64,000 nt of DNA from Aequorivita aquimaris (GTDB taxonomy: Bacteria > Bacteroidota > Bacteroidia > Flavobacteriales > Flavobacteriaceae). The translations under genes were made by a program, and so were the position numbers. Location of the stretch: contig NZ_JRWG01000003.1 in the NCBI RefSeq assembly GCF_001573155.1, positions 248,001 to 312,000 on the forward strand, read 5' to 3'. Below, one piece after another: positions 8,082-60,684 of this stretch. The notes below the pieces were generated by a model. It made no database searches, was not told where the DNA came from, and was given only the letters and a program-made list of their open reading frames with translations. The stretch's first letter is position 1. Each line of letters opens with the position of its first letter.

Positions 8082-9368
8082 ATGAAACGCGCCCTAATCA
8101 TCACATATTATTGGCCTCCCGCGGGCGGCCCGGGCGTACAGCGGTGGTTGAAATTTGTAAAATATTTTCGGGAGTTTGGCGTGGAACCGATTGTATATGC
8201 GCCCGAAAACCCCAACTATCCATTGGTTGATGAAAAGTTTGCTTCGGAAATTCCTTCGGATATTGAAGTATTAAAACAGCCAATTAATGAACCGTATCGT
8301 TTTGCGAAACTCTTTTCAAAAAAGAAAACCAAGCAGATGAGTAGCGGCATCATTTCAAAAAAGGAAATTTCCGCAGTGGAAAAGCTTATGCTCTACGTTC
8401 GCGGGAATTTTTTTATCCCCGATGCGCGGATGGGCTGGGTAAAACCTTCGGTAAAATTTCTTTCGAAATATATTGCGGAAAATTCAGTGGATGTTGTGAT
8501 TACAACCGGTCCGCCGCACAGCCTTCACTTAATTGGGATGCAACTTCAGAAAGACCTGAACGTAAAGTGGATTGCAGATTTCCGCGATCCGTGGACGACG
8601 ATCCATTACCACAAATCCCTTCGGTTGAACAAAGCTTCGGAACGCAAACACAAAGCGTTGGAAGCTTCCGTATTGAAAGCCGCAGACATAATAACGGTAA
8701 CCAGTCCAACAACCAAAAAAGAATTTGAAATGATTACCGAAACCCCGATTGAGGTTATAACAAACGGGTACGATATTTCAGGAAAAATAGATTTTGAGAT
8801 GGATTCCAAGTTTTCCATTTCACACATAGGCTCGCTTTTAAGCGAACGCAATCCAGAGTTTTTGTGGAAAGTGCTTGCTGAAATCTGCAAGGAAGATACT
8901 TCCTTCAAAAACGATTTGCAGTTGAAATTTGCTGGTGCCGTAAGCGAAGAAGTAAAACAAAGTCTTGAAAGTTTTCAGCTTTCGGAAAACTGTGAGTTTT
9001 TAGGATATATTTCCCATTCCGAAGCCTTGAAAATGCAGCATCAAAGCCAGGTTTTACTTTTGGTGGAAATAAACAGCGCGGAAACCCGTGCCATCATTCC
9101 CGGAAAACTTTTTGAATATCTCGCTGCCAAACGCCCAATAATCGCTTTGGGGCCGAAGGAAAGTGATATTGAGGGAATTATTAATGAGACTAAATCGGGG
9201 AAATTTTTTAGCTATTGGGACGATGATGAATTGAAAACTGAGATTCTCCAATTATACAAAGATTTCAAAAATGGCGAGCTAAAGATTGCTTCCGAAGGAA
9301 TTGAAAAATATAGTAGGAGGGAGCTGACGAGGCAAATGGCGTCTTTGATTTTAGTCGGTTGTGGGTAG
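8082..9368 (+). CDS. GT4-type glycosyltransferase
   Basis: A 428-residue two-domain GT-B glycosyltransferase. The N-terminus YYWPPAGGPGVQRWLKF is the acceptor-domain hallmark of this group, ADFRDPW marks the middle and IPGKLFEYLAAKRPIIALGP (about 342-361) is the sugar-nucleotide-binding segment of family 4. It begins right after the YfhO stop codon and is probably translationally coupled. The stop codon lies inside the heptamer array at 9352, so the last residues (LVGCG) are encoded by repeat DNA and may be a recent replacement of the original end. Confidence 0.85.
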   Translation: MKRALIITYYWPPAGGPGVQRWLKFVKYFREFGVEPIVYAPENPNYPLVDEKFASEIPSDIEVLKQPINEPYRFAKLFSKKKTKQMSSGIISKKEISAVEKLMLYVRGNFFIPDARMGWVKPSVKFLSKYIAENSVDVVITTGPPHSLHLIGMQLQKDLNVKWIADFRDPWTTIHYHKSLRLNKASERKHKALEASVLKAADIITVTSPTTKKEFEMITETPIEVITNGYDISGKIDFEMDSKFSISHIGSLLSERNPEFLWKVLAEICKEDTSFKNDLQLKFAGAVSEEVKQSLESFQLSENCEFLGYISHSEALKMQHQSQVLLLVEINSAETRAIIPGKLFEYLAAKRPIIALGPKESDIEGIINETKSGKFFSYWDDDELKTEILQLYKDFKNGELKIASEGIEKYSRRELTRQMASLILVGCG

Positions 9369-9393
9369 TCGGTTGTCGGTAGTCTGTAGTTTG
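9352..9393. repeat. heptamer array, TAGTCGG/TTGTCGG
   Basis: Six units of 7 bp in perfect phase (TAGTCGG, TTGTGGG, TAGTCGG, TTGTCGG, TAGTCTG, TAGTTTG). The TAG of the third unit is the stop codon of the glycosyltransferase. Confidence 0.75.
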
Positions 9394-39422: not shown

Positions 39423-39425
39423 ATA

Positions 39426-39509
39426 GATATGAGATATTAGACGTGAGATTTTAGATTTTAGGTCTCATATCTCACGTCTCACGTCTCAAATCTCAAATCT
39501 CACATCTAA
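39426..39509. repeat. inverted double heptamer array between convergent genes
   Basis: Twelve units of exactly 7 bp fill the whole gap. The left five (GATATGA, GATATTA, GACGTGA, GATTTTA, GATTTTA) are the reverse complement type of the right seven (GGTCTCA, TATCTCA, CGTCTCA twice, AATCTCA twice, CATCTAA). The inverted halves can form a hairpin, perhaps a bidirectional terminator. The stop codon of the PAP2 gene lies in the last unit. Confidence 0.8.
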
Positions 39510-49555: not shown

Positions 49556-49597
49556 GAAACCTGAAACCTGAAACCTGAAACCTGAAACCTGAAACCA
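49556..49597. repeat. heptamer array (GAAACCT)x6
   Basis: Five perfect GAAACCT units and a sixth GAAACCA, in one unbroken 7-bp phase, ending 4 bases before the pyrB start codon. Confidence 0.9.
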
Positions 49598-49601
49598 AGA
49601 A

Positions 49602-50537
49602 ATGGAACTAAGTGTAAACCACTTACTGGGAATAAAATACATCACCGAAGCCGATATCCAACTCATCTTCGAAACGGCAGACCATTTTAAGGAAGTAATC
49701 AATCGGCCCATCAAAAAAGTTCCCTCGCTTCGCGACATTACCATTGCCAATCTCTTTTTTGAAAACAGTACGCGAACCAAACTTTCCTTTGAACTTGCAG
49801 AGAAAAGGCTTTCCGCAGACGTTATAAACTTCGCTTCTTCGAGTTCCTCCGTTACCAAAGGCGAAACGCTAATTGATACCGTAAACAACATCCTTTCAAT
49901 GAAAGTGGATATGGTGGTGATGCGCCACCCCAATCCGGGCGCGGGCGTATTTCTTTCAAAGCATGTAAACGCAAGTATTATCAACGCTGGCGACGGTGCC
50001 CACGAACATCCCACCCAAGCATTGTTGGACAGCTATTCCATTCGTGAAAAGCTGGGCGATGTGGCTGGAAAAAAGGTTGTAATTGTAGGAGATATTCTTC
50101 ATTCACGGGTTGCGTTGTCGAATATTTTCGCTCTACAAAAACTTGGAGCGACCGTTAAGGTATGTGGCCCTAAAACGCTTATTCCTAAATATATGGAAAA
50201 ACTTGACGTTGGCGTTGAAACGAACCTTCGCAACGCGTTGGAATGGTGCGATGTGGCGAATATGCTCCGCGTGCAGAACGAGCGGATGGACATCAGCTAT
50301 TTCCCGACTACGAGGGAATATACCCAGCAATTTGGGCTAAACAAGCAACTACTCGATTCACTAAATAAAGAAATTGTTGTGATGCACCCAGGCCCAATAA
50401 ACCGCGGCGTGGAAATTACCAGCGATGTGGCCGACAGCAAACAATCCATTATTTTGGAACAGGTACAGAACGGCGTTGCCATACGTATGGCGGTAATCTA
50501 TTTATTGGCTTCAAAAATAAAACATCATGAAGATTGA
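49602..50537 (+). CDS. pyrB: aspartate carbamoyltransferase catalytic subunit
   Basis: A 311-residue enzyme that makes carbamoyl-aspartate in pyrimidine synthesis. FFENSTRTKLSFELAEKRL (about 47-65) binds carbamoyl phosphate, GDGAHEHPTQALLDSYSI (about 129-146) is the second substrate motif, and MHPGPINRGVEI (about 262-273) the aspartate-binding loop. No pyrI regulatory subunit is adjacent. The next gene overlaps its end by 11 bases, a strong sign of coupling. Confidence 0.96.
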   Translation: MELSVNHLLGIKYITEADIQLIFETADHFKEVINRPIKKVPSLRDITIANLFFENSTRTKLSFELAEKRLSADVINFASSSSSVTKGETLIDTVNNILSMKVDMVVMRHPNPGAGVFLSKHVNASIINAGDGAHEHPTQALLDSYSIREKLGDVAGKKVVIVGDILHSRVALSNIFALQKLGATVKVCGPKTLIPKYMEKLDVGVETNLRNALEWCDVANMLRVQNERMDISYFPTTREYTQQFGLNKQLLDSLNKEIVVMHPGPINRGVEITSDVADSKQSIILEQVQNGVAIRMAVIYLLASKIKHHED

Positions 50538-50862
50538 GAATCACCCAAATTTCGTGGTCCTTGAAGATGAAAAGGACGATATTATTGACTTTGCCTCGTT
50601 CATTGAGAGCCAAGTGCCTTCCAAATACAAAGGGCAAAATGTAGTTTTGAATCTTTTGAAATACGAAGATTTGGAGCTTCCGCAATTATTGCAGTTTCTT
50701 AAAACATCCAACCTTCATCGCAAAACCAAGCAATCCTTTGTAATTGTGAACGACGCTATCGATTTTGACGACGTTCCTTTTGAAATGATAGTGGTACCAA
50801 CCCTACAGGAAGCGGGCGATATTATTGAAATGGAAGAAATTGAAAGAGATCTGGGATTTTAG
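50527..50862 (+). CDS. STAS-like uncharacterised protein
   Basis: A 111-residue acidic protein. NVVLNLLKYEDLELPQLLQFL (about 38-58) and FVIVNDAIDFDDVPFEMIVVPTLQEAGDIIEMEEIERDL give the alternating beta-alpha pattern and the PTLQEA/EMEEIERDLGF end of anti-sigma antagonist-like (STAS) domains, but the phosphorylatable serine is not obvious. It overlaps pyrB by 11 bases and lies before rnz. Commonly conserved between these two genes in Flavobacteriia, so it may be linked to them; function unknown. Confidence 0.7.
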   Translation: MKIENHPNFVVLEDEKDDIIDFASFIESQVPSKYKGQNVVLNLLKYEDLELPQLLQFLKTSNLHRKTKQSFVIVNDAIDFDDVPFEMIVVPTLQEAGDIIEMEEIERDLGF

Positions 50863-50869
50863 ATCTACG

Positions 50870-50887
50870 TTCCGATAGCTATTGGAA
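50870..50887. repeat. dispersed palindrome, TAGCTA family, copy 1
   Basis: TTCCGATAGCTATTGGAA, one mismatch from a perfect palindrome, 20 bases before the heptamer array. Other copies at 51884 and 61344. Confidence 0.7.
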
Positions 50888-50906
50888 GCTGATTTTAGAT
50901 TGTTTT

Positions 50907-50976
50907 CAAATTCCAAAATGCAAATTCCAAATTCCAAAATCGTAAATCGTAAATCGTAAATCGCAAATCGTAAATG
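50907..50976. repeat. composite heptamer array CAAATTC/GTAAATC
   Basis: Ten units of exactly 7 bp: CAAATTC, CAAAATG, CAAATTC, CAAATTC, CAAAATC, then GTAAATC three times, GCAAATC and GTAAATG. The two unit types share one phase without a break. The ATG of the rnz start codon lies in the last unit. Confidence 0.92.
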
Positions 50977-51879
50977 AAACTAACAATCCTCGGATGCCAT
51001 TCTGCCACGCCCACAGCCTCCGCGCACCCAACGGCGCAGGTGTTGGAGATAAAGGGGCATTTGTTTTTGATTGATTGCGGCGAGGGCACCCAAATGCAGC
51101 TTCGGAAATACAGGGTGAAATTCTCACGGATTCGGCATATTTTCATTTCACATTTGCACGGCGACCATTTTTATGGTTTGGTGGGGCTTATTTCCACTTT
51201 TCTGCTTTTGGGAAGGGAAGCAGAGTTGCACATTTACGGGCCAAAGGGAATAAAACAGGCAATATTGCTGCTGCTTAAACTGGGGAAAGCTTATACCAAC
51301 TATCCACTGTATTTTCACGAATTGGAAGGAACAACGCCACAGCTCATTTTTGAGGATGATAAAGTTTCTGTGGAAACCATCCCGTTGGACCACAGAGTTT
51401 ATACCAACGGATTTCTTTTCAAGGAAAAACCTGATGACCGAAAATTAGATATAGAAAAAGCCCGAAAACTCAATATCGATTTAAGTTATTACAATAAAAT
51501 AAAACAGGGCTATGATGTTGAGAATAGGGAAGGAAAGCTCATTCCCAATAAAGAAATAACTTTTGACCCGCCACCGCCAAAAAGTTACGCCTATTGCAGC
51601 GATACGGCCTATTGTCCTGAAATAGTGCCACAAATTGAAAACGCGACGGTTCTGTACCACGAATCCACCTTTTTGGAAGAACACCACCATCTCTGCGAAA
51701 AAACCAAGCACAGCACCGCAAAGGAAGCGGGCGTAATTGCGCGAAAGGCAAAGGTTGGCACTTTAATCCTTGGGCACTATTCCGGGCGTTACGGCAATTT
51801 GGAGCTTTTCCGAAGAGAGGCGCAGGAGGTATTTGATTATGTGGAGTTGGCAGAGGACGGAAAGGTATTTACTTTTTAA
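50974..51879 (+). CDS. rnz: ribonuclease Z
   Basis: A 301-residue metallo-beta-lactamase-fold endonuclease that trims tRNA 3-prime ends. FISHLHGDHFYGLVGLIS (about 58-75) is the HxHxDH zinc motif; PLDHRVYTNGF (about 134-144) matches the family's PxxHxxxxxGY-type box and ILGHYSGRY (about 267-275) the final histidine motif. The start codon is supplied by the repeat array, so the leader is entirely repeat DNA. Confidence 0.95.
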   Translation: MKLTILGCHSATPTASAHPTAQVLEIKGHLFLIDCGEGTQMQLRKYRVKFSRIRHIFISHLHGDHFYGLVGLISTFLLLGREAELHIYGPKGIKQAILLLLKLGKAYTNYPLYFHELEGTTPQLIFEDDKVSVETIPLDHRVYTNGFLFKEKPDDRKLDIEKARKLNIDLSYYNKIKQGYDVENREGKLIPNKEITFDPPPPKSYAYCSDTAYCPEIVPQIENATVLYHESTFLEEHHHLCEKTKHSTAKEAGVIARKAKVGTLILGHYSGRYGNLELFRREAQEVFDYVELAEDGKVFTF

Positions 51880-51883
51880 ATCG

Positions 51884-51902
51884 ATCCCAATAGCTATGGG
51901 GA
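51884..51902. repeat. dispersed palindrome, TAGCTA family, copy 2
   Basis: TCCCAATAGCTATGGGGA with one mismatch, just after the rnz stop codon and 40 bases before a nonamer array. Confidence 0.65.
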
Positions 51903-51940
51903 CGAAATCGAAGTTGCTTCAAAGTTGATTTTTTATCACA

Positions 51941-51976
51941 ACAACAGAAACAACAGAAACAACAGAAACAACAGAA
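51941..51976. repeat. nonamer array (ACAACAGAA)x4
   Basis: Four perfect 9-bp units, followed by ACAATAG. The only array here with a 9-bp rather than 7-bp period; about 128 bases before pdxH. Confidence 0.85.
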
Positions 51977-52104
51977 ACAATAGCATCCACCGCATCCACA
52001 GCACCTCCCATCGAGCACCCCGCTTCAAAAATTTTAATACATATTTAATAAGCCACTGTTTTATAGCTTCGTTAAAACTCTTAACTTGCGTTAAAACTAG
52101 AACA

Positions 52105-52749
52105 ATGGCGGAAAAGCTTCACGATTACCGAAAATCCTACGAAAAAGGAATCCTTTCCGAAGAAACCGTTGACGAAAACCCGATGCAACAGTTCCGAACT
52201 TGGTTTTTTGAGGTGAAAGATAGCGGGGGGGTGGATGAAGTAAATGCTATGACAATTTCCACAATCGGCACCGATGGTTTTCCAAAGGGGCGCGTAGTGC
52301 TGTTAAAAAAATATGACGAATACGGCTTCTATTTTTACACCAATTACAACAGCGAAAAAGGTAAATCCATAGCCAATAACAACAGGGTCTCGCTTTCCTT
52401 TTTTTGGCCAAATATGGAGCGGCAGGTCATCATAAAAGGAACTGCGGAAAAAACCTCCGAAGCAGATTCAACCAATTATTTTCATTCAAGGCCCAAGGGA
52501 AGCCAATTGGGCGCAGCGGTTTCGCACCAAAGCGAAGTTGTGGAATCGCGTAAAATTTTGGAAGAAAATCTCGCAGAACTTGAAAGAAAACACATAAACA
52601 AAGAAGTTCCAAAACCTGAGGATTGGGGCGGTTTTTTGGTGAAACCTATTTCCATAGAATTTTGGCAGGGCAGACCCAATCGGCTTCACGACAGGATTCG
52701 TTATACTTTGAAGGGCGACGATTGGGTGATTGAACGTTTGGCACCCTAG
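52105..52749 (+). CDS. pdxH: pyridoxamine 5-phosphate oxidase
   Basis: A 214-residue flavin (FMN) enzyme that makes pyridoxal 5-phosphate, the cofactor of several enzymes in this window. DGFPKGRVVLLKKYDEYGFYFYTNY (about 54-78), NPMQQFRTWF (about 24-33) and SIEFWQGRPNRLHDR with the final ERLAP are the family signatures. ATG 52105 is the family start; the longer frame reads through the nonamer array (RNNRNN repeats) and is an artefact. Confidence 0.95.
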   Translation: MAEKLHDYRKSYEKGILSEETVDENPMQQFRTWFFEVKDSGGVDEVNAMTISTIGTDGFPKGRVVLLKKYDEYGFYFYTNYNSEKGKSIANNNRVSLSFFWPNMERQVIIKGTAEKTSEADSTNYFHSRPKGSQLGAAVSHQSEVVESRKILEENLAELERKHINKEVPKPEDWGGFLVKPISIEFWQGRPNRLHDRIRYTLKGDDWVIERLAP

Positions 52750-52754
52750 GTTTA

Positions 52755-52858
52755 AAAATTCCAAATTCCAAAATCCAAATATCAAATATCAAATTCCAAG
52801 TACACCTACTACACCTGAAACGAGAAACTTGAAACCAGAAACAAAAAATAGAAACAAT
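52755..52858. repeat. composite heptamer array CAAATTC then AAACNNG
   Basis: About 14 units of 7 bp: AAAATTC, CAAATTC, CAAAATC, CAAATAT twice, CAAATTC, then drifting units, then AAACGAG, AAACTTG, AAACCAG, AAACAAA, with one single-base slip near 52846. It combines the unit types of the arrays at 50907 and 49556 and ends 4 bases before the sixA start codon. Confidence 0.8.
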
Positions 52859-52861
52859 TTT

Positions 52862-53347
52862 ATGAAGACATTATACTTAGTCCGCCACGCAAAATCATCC
52901 TGGAAGCACGATGTGGAAGACCACAAGCGCCCGTTGAAGGGTAGGGGTGAACGTGACGGCAAATTGGTTTCCAAAAAAGTAGCAAAGGAAATTGACCCGC
53001 CCCAACGGATTATCACTAGCGATGCCACACGCGCGCTTTCCACCGCCCATTTTTTTAAGGACGCACTGGAAATAGACGAAACTAACTTTGAAACCAATCA
53101 CGACCTCTATGATTTTAGCGGGCAAAATGTAATGAGAATTATAAAATCACTGCCGGATAGTCTCGATAAAATAATGATTGTTGGCCACAATCACGCTTTT
53201 ACATCCGTTGCAAATATGCTCGGAAACCGCTATATTGACAATGTTCCAACCTGTGGTTTTGTGATGTTGCAGTTTGACGAAAAAAAGTGGAGCGATATAA
53301 CTACGGGTGAAACCGTTAAAACTATTTTCCCAAGGGATCTCAAATAA
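52862..53347 (+). CDS. histidine phosphatase, SixA-like
   Basis: A 161-residue phosphoglycerate-mutase-fold phosphatase. LYLVRHAKSSWKHDVEDHKRPL (about 3-24) carries the RHG-type active site (RHA), and MIVGHNHAFTSVANML (about 108-123) the second histidine. SixA in E. coli removes phosphate from histidine phosphotransfer proteins. Its stop overlaps the ATG of ppk by one base, so the two are coupled; it may act on phosphohistidine. Confidence 0.87.
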   Translation: MKTLYLVRHAKSSWKHDVEDHKRPLKGRGERDGKLVSKKVAKEIDPPQRIITSDATRALSTAHFFKDALEIDETNFETNHDLYDFSGQNVMRIIKSLPDSLDKIMIVGHNHAFTSVANMLGNRYIDNVPTCGFVMLQFDEKKWSDITTGETVKTIFPRDLK

Positions 53348-60057: not shown

Positions 60058-60639
60058 TTACCCGTGTATTGATTGATGCTTGCCAAGGTCCTTCATAACT
60101 TCGGCTTCAAAGGAAAGCAGGTCGTTCCATTTTTGGTCCACTTCTTTCCGGTCGCCGTATTGGCGGGCAAAGCCGAGGAACATCGTGTAGTGGTTTGCTT
60201 CACTTACCATCAGTTTTCGGTAAAATTCCGCCAATTCTTTATCTTCCAATTCCTCGCTTAAAAGCCGAAAGCGTTCACAACTTCGGGCTTCAATCAAGGC
60301 TGCATAAAGTAATCTGTGGACTAATTGTGTGGTTCTGCTTCCGCCTTTTGGGAAGAATTGGACAATCTGCAGCACATATTCGTCCTTTCTGTCGCGGCCC
60401 AAAACCCAGCCGCGCTCCAGGATTTTGTCGTGCACCATTTTGAAGTGGCTTATTTCTTCTTTTACCAAAGCAATCATTTCCTGAATAAGTTCAGTATATT
60501 CCGGAAAGCTCACAATCAAGGAAACCGCCGTGGAAGCTGCTTTCTGCTCGCACCAAGCGTGGTCGGTAAGAATGTCTTCTATGTTTTTTTCAACAATATT
60601 TACCCAGCGCGGGTCTGTGGGAAGTTTTAAGCCAAGCAT
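60058..60639 (-). CDS. miaE: tRNA-(ms2io6A37) hydroxylase MiaE
   Basis: A 193-residue diiron enzyme that hydroxylates the modified A37 of tRNAs. Iron ligands are in DHAWCEQKAAST, KEEISHFKMVHD, ALIEARSCERFRLL and VSEANHYTMFLG, the four-helix-bundle pattern. miaA and miaB are not in the window. The leader immediately before the ATG is a heptamer array. The CLC gene follows 20 bases later. Confidence 0.93.
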   Translation of the reverse strand: MLGLKLPTDPRWVNIVEKNIEDILTDHAWCEQKAASTAVSLIVSFPEYTELIQEMIALVKEEISHFKMVHDKILERGWVLGRDRKDEYVLQIVQFFPKGGSRTTQLVHRLLYAALIEARSCERFRLLSEELEDKELAEFYRKLMVSEANHYTMFLGFARQYGDRKEVDQKWNDLLSFEAEVMKDLGKHQSIHG

Positions 60640-60642
60640 TTT

Positions 60643-60684
60643 GATTTATAATTTACGATATACGATTGTCGATTTACGATTTTG
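60643..60684. repeat. heptamer array, GTAAATC on the gene strand
   Basis: Six units of 7 bp (GATTTAT, AATTTAC, GATATAC, GATTGTC, GATTTAC, GATTTTG on the plus strand) in perfect phase, ending 3 bases before the miaE start codon. Read on the gene strand the unit is GTAAATC, the same as in front of rnz and in the same orientation. Confidence 0.8.

Follow-up and report, generated by a model that had tools for sequence, protein, structure and literature searches.

In a stretch of 64,000 nucleotides from Aequorivita aquimaris (contig NZ_JRWG01000003.1, positions 248,001 to 312,000; hereafter the window), the gaps around pyrB, rnz, pdxH and a sixA-like gene hold tandem arrays whose unit drifts and switches at a fixed period of 7 bp, which raises the question of why the period is kept when the sequence is not. 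An earlier note on this DNA had offered an active duplication process, unstructured mRNA leaders or DNA helix phasing as possible answers. We consider it probable, at roughly 0.7, that the arrays are heptanucleotide simple sequence repeats that arise by local tandem duplication with a 7-bp quantum and are tolerated in spacers. Because the period is constant while the unit varies widely, the period more likely comes from the machinery than from a signal. By comparison among genomes, the arrays display a common period, length differences of whole units, births from seeds in several gaps, similarity between neighbouring units, near-absence from coding DNA, turnover between species and a patchy distribution over lineages.

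The arrays are genuine, and their number at a period of 7 bp exceeds chance expectation by a wide margin. Autocorrelation of intergenic DNA, suggested as a check by the earlier note, gives an excess at lag 7 both in the window (z = 5.2) and in C1:1-400000 of this genome (z = 11.9), and lag 14 gives z = 3.2 and 9.8, respectively; other lags in the 400-kb sample reach z = 5.7 (lag 6), 4.3 (lag 15) and 3.7 (lag 8). In 838,951 bases of this genome, of which 230,000 were chosen non-blindly (the window plus its flanks, and two segments already known to contain arrays), 82 arrays score at least 12 at lag 7, where shuffles give 1.4; lag 8 gives 12 such arrays (1.8 shuffled) and lag 11 gives 7 (0.4 shuffled). 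A sample of 1.73 Mb from four Aequorivita genomes, composed of contig C1 of this genome and stretches of the relatives G022, G005 and G017 picked for synteny with C1, contains 149 arrays in 123 of 1,041 intergenic gaps of at least 20 bp (~12% of gaps). The 176,037 bp of intergenic DNA yield 75 exact runs of at least three copies with a 7-bp unit; the corresponding figures are 8 for units of 8 bp, 6 for 11 bp, 1 for 10 bp and none for 9, 12 and 13 bp, and the runs at 14 bp (14) and 21 bp (3) are multiples of 7; ten shuffles give 0.00 such runs from 7 bp up, and runs of 4, 5 and 6 bp are in no clear excess there (6, 1 and 1 observed against 6.4, 1.4 and 0.2 shuffled). Coding DNA contains only 2 exact 7-bp runs of at least three copies in 1.55 Mb, compared with the 75 in 0.18 Mb of intergenic DNA. 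Two-copy repeats in all gaps are also in excess over shuffled DNA, with 152 against 28.4 at 7 bp, 32 against 7.4 at 8 bp and 123 against 81.3 at 6 bp. Assessed as heptanucleotide long simple sequence repeats, the arrays have all three properties of the class: 7-nt units above chance, a mainly intergenic location and copy numbers that vary by whole units between related species.

Within the window, six of the eight period-7 sites listed by the earlier note pass the lag-7 test, and those at 1079 and 1151 fall below the lowest threshold used. Genes were called with a codon-usage gene finder written for this analysis; pyrB was identified by NCBIfam NF002032 and rnz by NF000801, while the sixA-like gene matches SixA at 36.1 bits, under the curated cut-off of 74.5, and the MiaE-like gene matches MiaE at 94 bits, under the cut-off of 320. 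The arrays, found with Tandem Repeats Finder (TRF) or with our lag-7 caller, are as follows.

49556..49596, + strand: (GAAACCT)x5.9 array, 100% match in TRF, ending 5 nt 5' of the pyrB start codon at 49602.
50904..50973, + strand: array switching from CAAATTC/AAATTCC to AAATCGT (GTAAATC) and continuing without a shift of phase up to and into the rnz start codon (50974); TRF splits it into 50907-50938 (CAAATTC) and 50937-50975 (AAATCGT), both of period 7.
52756..52799, + strand: AAATTCC/AAATATC array 3' of pdxH (TRF unit AAATTCC), with one extra 7-bp unit in the relative G022.
52817..52854, + strand: degenerate GAAACNN array, 7 nt 5' of the sixA-like start codon at 52862; TRF also gives a 7-bp array at 52813-52842 before this gene.
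60639..60682, - strand: GTAAATC-type array, read on the - strand, just upstream of the MiaE-like gene 60058-60639 (lag-7 caller).
39425..39507, no strand assigned: TGAGATT/TCTCAAA array between convergent genes (lag-7 caller).
9354..9393, no strand assigned: TAGTCGG/TTGTCGG array overlapping the 3' end of gene 8082-9368 and a convergent gap (lag-7 caller).

As the earlier note had stated, the GTAAATC unit recurs before rnz and the MiaE-like gene, and CAAATTC recurs before rnz and the sixA-like gene.

Alignment of orthologous gaps, also suggested earlier (for strains; species, with one assembly each, were compared here), revealed that lengths vary among related species by whole units. One-unit differences were found at three of the four focus gaps: pdxH-sixA is 116 bp here and 123 in G022, rnz-pdxH is 207 in G022 and 200 in G012, and pyrR-pyrB is 70 at locus L105 and 77 at L116 (the pdxH-sixA lengths include the stop codon and one extra base, the true gap here being 112 bp, and the other lengths include the stop codon, which leaves the differences unaffected). 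Of 1,045 orthologous gap pairs, 567 met length and identity filters and were aligned. Indels copying a neighbour at 80% identity or more comprised 10 distinct words at multiples of 7 (4 at 7, 3 at 14, 1 at 21 and 2 at 28 bp), against 0.32 with shuffled letters, and 9 distinct words at all other lengths from 5 to 30 bp, against about 4.4 expected. In several gaps the seed of an array can be seen: gap 201 has two units in this genome and G022 and is 28 bp longer in G005 (96 bp here, 124 bp there), gap 327 has one, three and nine units across the genomes compared, and single-copy seeds are present in relatives at gap 511 and the pdxH-sixA gap. Identity between units of 70 arrays declines with their distance (0.81, 0.77, 0.72, 0.70, 0.67) and is flat at 0.71 when unit order is shuffled. 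Since adjacent units are most alike, copying is local, and since a changed unit is itself copied, the array can switch units in phase. These whole-unit differences and growth from seeds support the active duplication process that had been suggested.

The arrays turn over between species. We found rnz in 27 of the 28 genomes of the genus searched, and among the gaps that could be excised from 27 loci, arrays were called in 9 of 15 between pyrR and pyrB, 9 of 25 upstream of rnz, 2 of 22 downstream of it and 8 of 20 upstream of sixA, with units that differ by species (AAACCCT, AATCTTG, GATAACC, GCCAACA). By RNase Z, G022 is the nearest relative (97%), and its gap upstream of rnz lacks an array, scoring at most 7 at lag 7. 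Of 215 gap pairs between this genome and G022, 15 carry arrays in both, none in this genome only, 9 in G022 only and 191 in neither; the counts for both, this genome only and the other genome only are 11, 12 and 7 in 230 pairs with G005, and 5, 9 and 3 in 179 pairs with G017. Units are diverse within a genome as well, with 35 distinct units among 40 runs in contig C1.

In the mechanism that we propose, local tandem duplication, most likely slipped-strand mispairing during DNA synthesis, would expand best by 7 bp, largely whatever the sequence. We infer slippage as the cause, and the 7-bp step would reflect a property of a polymerase or of repair. Units would drift by point mutation and a drifted unit would be copied in turn, switching the unit and keeping the period, and coding DNA would purge the arrays because 7 is not a multiple of 3. 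Where arrays abut start codons, selection on translation start (no Shine-Dalgarno sequence, low structure, A near -3) would retain only the A+C-rich orientations. The arrays would have no dedicated function as a class, those in leaders serving passively as unstructured leaders. According to one proposal, the stretch of DNA that the polymerase grips is 7 nt long (Mrazek 2007, cited in PMC4679880). This proposal is consistent with the array data. We know of no experimental test of it. Mismatch repair works efficiently on loops of 1-3 bp and less well the longer the loop (available part of PMC4060949); this limit may explain the absence of short steps, though not why 7 exceeds 8 or 9.

Outside the genus the distribution is patchy. 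Among 80 named loci, the 5 from Aequorivita contain 9 arrays in 4.8 kb of gap sequence, the gaps of Altibacter (1.2 kb) and Christiangramia (5.2 kb) have none, and those of Flavobacterium (25 kb) have 9 at lag 7 (1.2 shuffled) and 7 at lag 8. Across 296 other genomes of the family, a pattern of AAC at every seventh position, which detects only units containing AAC and counts overlapping windows, gives a median of 12 matches, with at least 20 in 125 genomes, at least 100 in 29 and 0-2 in 78; AAC at every eighth position gives a median of 2. Of the 133 genomes with at least 20 matches at either spacing, 94 have three or more times as many at 7 as at 8, 5 show the opposite preference by the same margin and 34 are mixed. 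Larger genomes tend to have a higher array load (rho 0.40) and the loads of congeners are correlated (rho 0.48), although the number of 7-spaced matches differs by a factor of ten or more in 13 of 94 congeneric pairs. A unit-free caller applied to 200 kb of each genome found exact 7-bp runs numbering 0 in G172, 7 in its congener G324 and 9 in G109, and in a 63-kb sample of G221 it found 2 arrays of period 8 and 1 of period 7, too few to confirm that 8 dominates. It is possible, though doubtful, that the expansion step is a heritable trait of replication or repair, being 7 bp in most array-rich Flavobacteriaceae and 8 in some, lost or turned off in sister species, and nearly blind to sequence. 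If so, spacer DNA would be a readable record of the replication and repair machinery.

We looked at three hand-picked gene families for their association with array load. Ku (PF02735) is present in 29 of the 299 genomes searched, this one included. The Y-family polymerase domain PF00817 was rejected as a cause, as every one of the 26 genomes that make up 13 contrasting pairs has 2-3 copies of it, so that it does not discriminate. The Y1 transposase PF01797 is more numerous in the array-rich member of 7 of these 13 pairs, fewer in 1 and absent from both members in 5; among the 296 genomes, those bearing it have a median load of 29 against 7 in the others (p = 7e-6; t = 2.9 after genome size), and the association is gone among genomes of at least 4.2 Mb (p = 0.71). 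It was rejected as a requirement because this genome and G017 have none.

Several observations weigh against duplication in 7-bp steps as the explanation. None of the three gene families explains which genomes carry arrays. When all indels are pooled, there is no peak at 7 bp (106 of 6 bp, 54 of 7 bp, 45 of 8 bp), and a looser count at 70% identity (12 at 7 bp, 6 at 14 bp) counts one event in four species pairs, 8 of its 12 7-bp indels matching at just 5 of 7 letters. In the 934 gaps that lack a strong lag-7 array, exact two-copy repeats number 102 against 64.5 shuffled at 6 bp, 45 against 22.4 at 7 bp and 23 against 9.2 at 8 bp, an alike excess of 1.6-, 2.0- and 2.5-fold, and runs of at least three copies persist there at 8 bp (5) and 11 bp (4). 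Because the two-copy excess is similar at 6, 7 and 8 bp, it is growth beyond two copies, not the first duplication, that is sharply set at 7. The 118 perfect runs comprise 68 distinct units against 107 by letter permutation, a figure inflated by orthologues, and the amino/keto skew of the units in contig C1 is 0.38 against 0.20, a value reached in 8 of 1000 simulations (156 of 1000 for G017 and 102 of 1000 for G005); this recurrence and skew imply some constraint on the unit sequence. Unlike most arrays, a drifted one of AAC type in gap 138 (C1:157900-157945), upstream of a start codon, is near-identical in this genome, G022 and G005. All genomes are assemblies, many of them drafts, and one TTAACCC array in G005 contains a run of N. 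Finally, slippage and unequal recombination cannot be told apart by comparing sequences.

The placement of arrays bears on whether they serve as leader elements. In the four Aequorivita genomes, array density over gaps of all lengths is 1.01 per kb between co-directional genes, 0.77 between convergent ones and 0.40 between divergent ones, and in gaps of 60-200 bp the three values are 1.48 (69 arrays), 1.47 (11) and 0.65 (9), a pattern that fits array growth where regulatory DNA is sparse. Among co-directional arrays, 42 of 119 lie within 15 nt of the start codon, against 30.4 (sd 3.4) under random placement, and a like excess is found beside upstream stop codons (42 against 30.5, sd 3.7). The A+C fraction exceeds 0.6 in 34 of the 42 near-start arrays and is below 0.4 in none; the remaining 77 co-directional arrays go both ways, with 36 above 0.6 and 23 below 0.4. 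Leaders with an array have a median folding energy of -1.7 kcal/mol (45 leaders) against -5.3 without (300 sampled of 854), would fold at a predicted -8.2 if reverse-complemented, and have A at -3 in a fraction of 0.67 against 0.44. Translation start in Flavobacterium johnsoniae is tuned by structure and by A at -3, in a phylum without Shine-Dalgarno sequences (Baez 2019, available part of PMC6847099), which provides a known basis for such a filter. It is as if translation filtered the orientation of near-start arrays toward the A+C-rich and weakly folded.

These features would also be expected if the arrays were RNA elements of leaders under selection, with an OB-fold protein (a cold-shock protein or ribosomal S1) landing on each heptamer, a model that MacGregor put forward for TAACTGA. 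Richness in A at -1 and -3, the excess near start codons and the conserved array of gap 138 agree with this idea, which we nevertheless regard as unlikely: convergent gaps of 60-200 bp are as dense as co-directional ones, which argues that the arrays are not leader elements as a class, divergent gaps are the poorest, the excess recurs beside upstream stop codons, array presence is poorly conserved in the pairs with G005, G022 and G017, and units differ among orthologues. The earlier suggestion of unstructured mRNA leaders is thus supported only for arrays near start codons. Spread of the unit words as a mobile or horizontally transferred repeat copied between loci seems very improbable; some units do recur at unlinked loci and in several species, and MacGregor (PMC4679880, available part) argued for transfer of TAACTGA, but several gaps show arrays that grew on the spot from a local seed, 35 of 40 runs in C1 are distinct and neighbouring units are the most alike.

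Improbable, to a slightly smaller degree, is the origin of 7-bp duplications in the repair of staggered breaks, through fill-in of overhangs and end joining with Ku. Genomes with Ku have a median of 57 7-spaced matches against 10 without (26 against 270 genomes, p = 8e-4), a difference that holds among genomes of at least 3 Mb (57 against 15, p = 0.006) and by genus (68.75 against 13.25, 18 against 184 genera, p = 2e-4). However, two of the three top genomes outside Aequorivita (G193 and G338) lack Ku, the Ku-bearing G068, G137 and G302 have 0 matches, and the 7 congeneric pairs differing in Ku are split, with 3 for, 3 against and 1 nearly tied; the association with array load is weak and inconsistent. 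A role at the DNA level, by helix phasing or as a lattice for a nucleoid protein, is least to be expected. In its favour, the period is fixed, and both the minor 11-bp class (6 exact runs) and the 21-bp multiples are near whole helical turns, but the main period of 7 bp does not keep step with the 10.5-bp helix repeat, 10 bp gives one run, and the arrays are short and occupy only ~12% of gaps. The helix phasing raised by the earlier note is thus not borne out, the small 11-bp class coming closest to it. For local duplication in 7-bp steps, a practical consequence is that spacer length and sequence in array-bearing genomes are poor evidence of regulation.

Heptamer arrays in these bacteria are not new. 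Contrary to the earlier statement that no flavobacterial counterpart exists, MacGregor 2015 (PMC4679880, available part) already reported intergenic heptamer arrays in Aequorivita sublithincola and Gramella forsetii, with other heptamers in the same gaps as TAACTGA direct repeats, which like the present arrays are present in one species and absent from a close relative. In Maribeggiatoa a single unit predominates and similar heptamers seldom occur as repeats, according to the same part of that paper, and TAACTGA repeats are mostly located a few nt 5' of start codons. The Aequorivita arrays have 68 units, TAACTGA (as the rotation AACTGAT) accounting for just 2 of the 118 perfect runs, and of the 119 co-directional arrays 42 are within 15 nt of a start; in both respects they depart from the type MacGregor described. 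Heptanucleotides are the commonest class of long simple sequence repeats of 5-11 nt (Mrazek et al. 2007, as cited in PMC4679880 and PMC4692102), and the ten richest genomes, as cited there, include no Bacteroidetes, whereas Aequorivita has arrays in ~12% of gaps, with in-phase drift. The GGGAATC and GGGGATT repeats of Xanthomonas and Nostoc (Rehm 2015, available part of PMC4692102, which also mentions heptanucleotides of Calothrix) likewise often occupy the same gaps of related species with varying length and sequence; they have one G-rich, quadruplex-capable unit type, whereas Aequorivita has many units with a modest amino/keto skew. In our searches of open-licence literature, we found no further report of such repeats in Flavobacteria or Bacteroidetes, and none on many units with one period, patchiness across Flavobacteriaceae, a period of 7 or 8 by lineage or the start-codon filter. 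The short tandemly repeated repetitive (STRR) sequences of cyanobacteria are likewise 7-bp tandem repeats but would differ in having fixed unit words. Contrasting congeneric pairs of Flavobacteriaceae could help to explain the predominance of heptamers among the long repeats of many bacteria.

Hairpin terminators were rejected as an explanation for the class, as inverted repeats are not commoner in array gaps, although single cases exist. Inverted repeats scoring at least 12 occur in 7% of 69 co-directional gaps of 60-300 bp with arrays against 12% of 420 without, and in 17% of 12 convergent gaps of that length with arrays against 30% of 79 without. The halves of the array at 39425-39507 look by eye like an imperfect inverted repeat, perhaps a two-way terminator built of heptamers. 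In the pdxH-sixA gap of locus L103 (G012), a hairpin element (cctgcctg...caggcagg) stands within an AAATTCC array as if inserted (by eye), and similar hairpins are found before rnz at L103 and near 1060-1080 of the window. Before rnz at L102, L105, L109, L110, L113, L116 and L125, an inverted repeat of cagt/actg words with 6-7 bp spacing was seen by eye; the gap at L110 was also called as a lag-7 array. Apart from the arrays, this genome (G000) has a Ku gene and a second partial Ku match, at C1:411474-412010 and C6:200880-201101. Between rnz and pdxH, TRF finds a 9-bp array (AACAACAGA x4.6) at 51940-51980, in place of which G022 and G012 have a 7-bp GCACCCC array. The stretch before pdxH (~52030-52104, TTTAATACATATTTAATA ... 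TTAACTTGCGTTAAAAC) seems by eye to be mostly kept across the genus, the rest of the gap turning over, and is probably the promoter.

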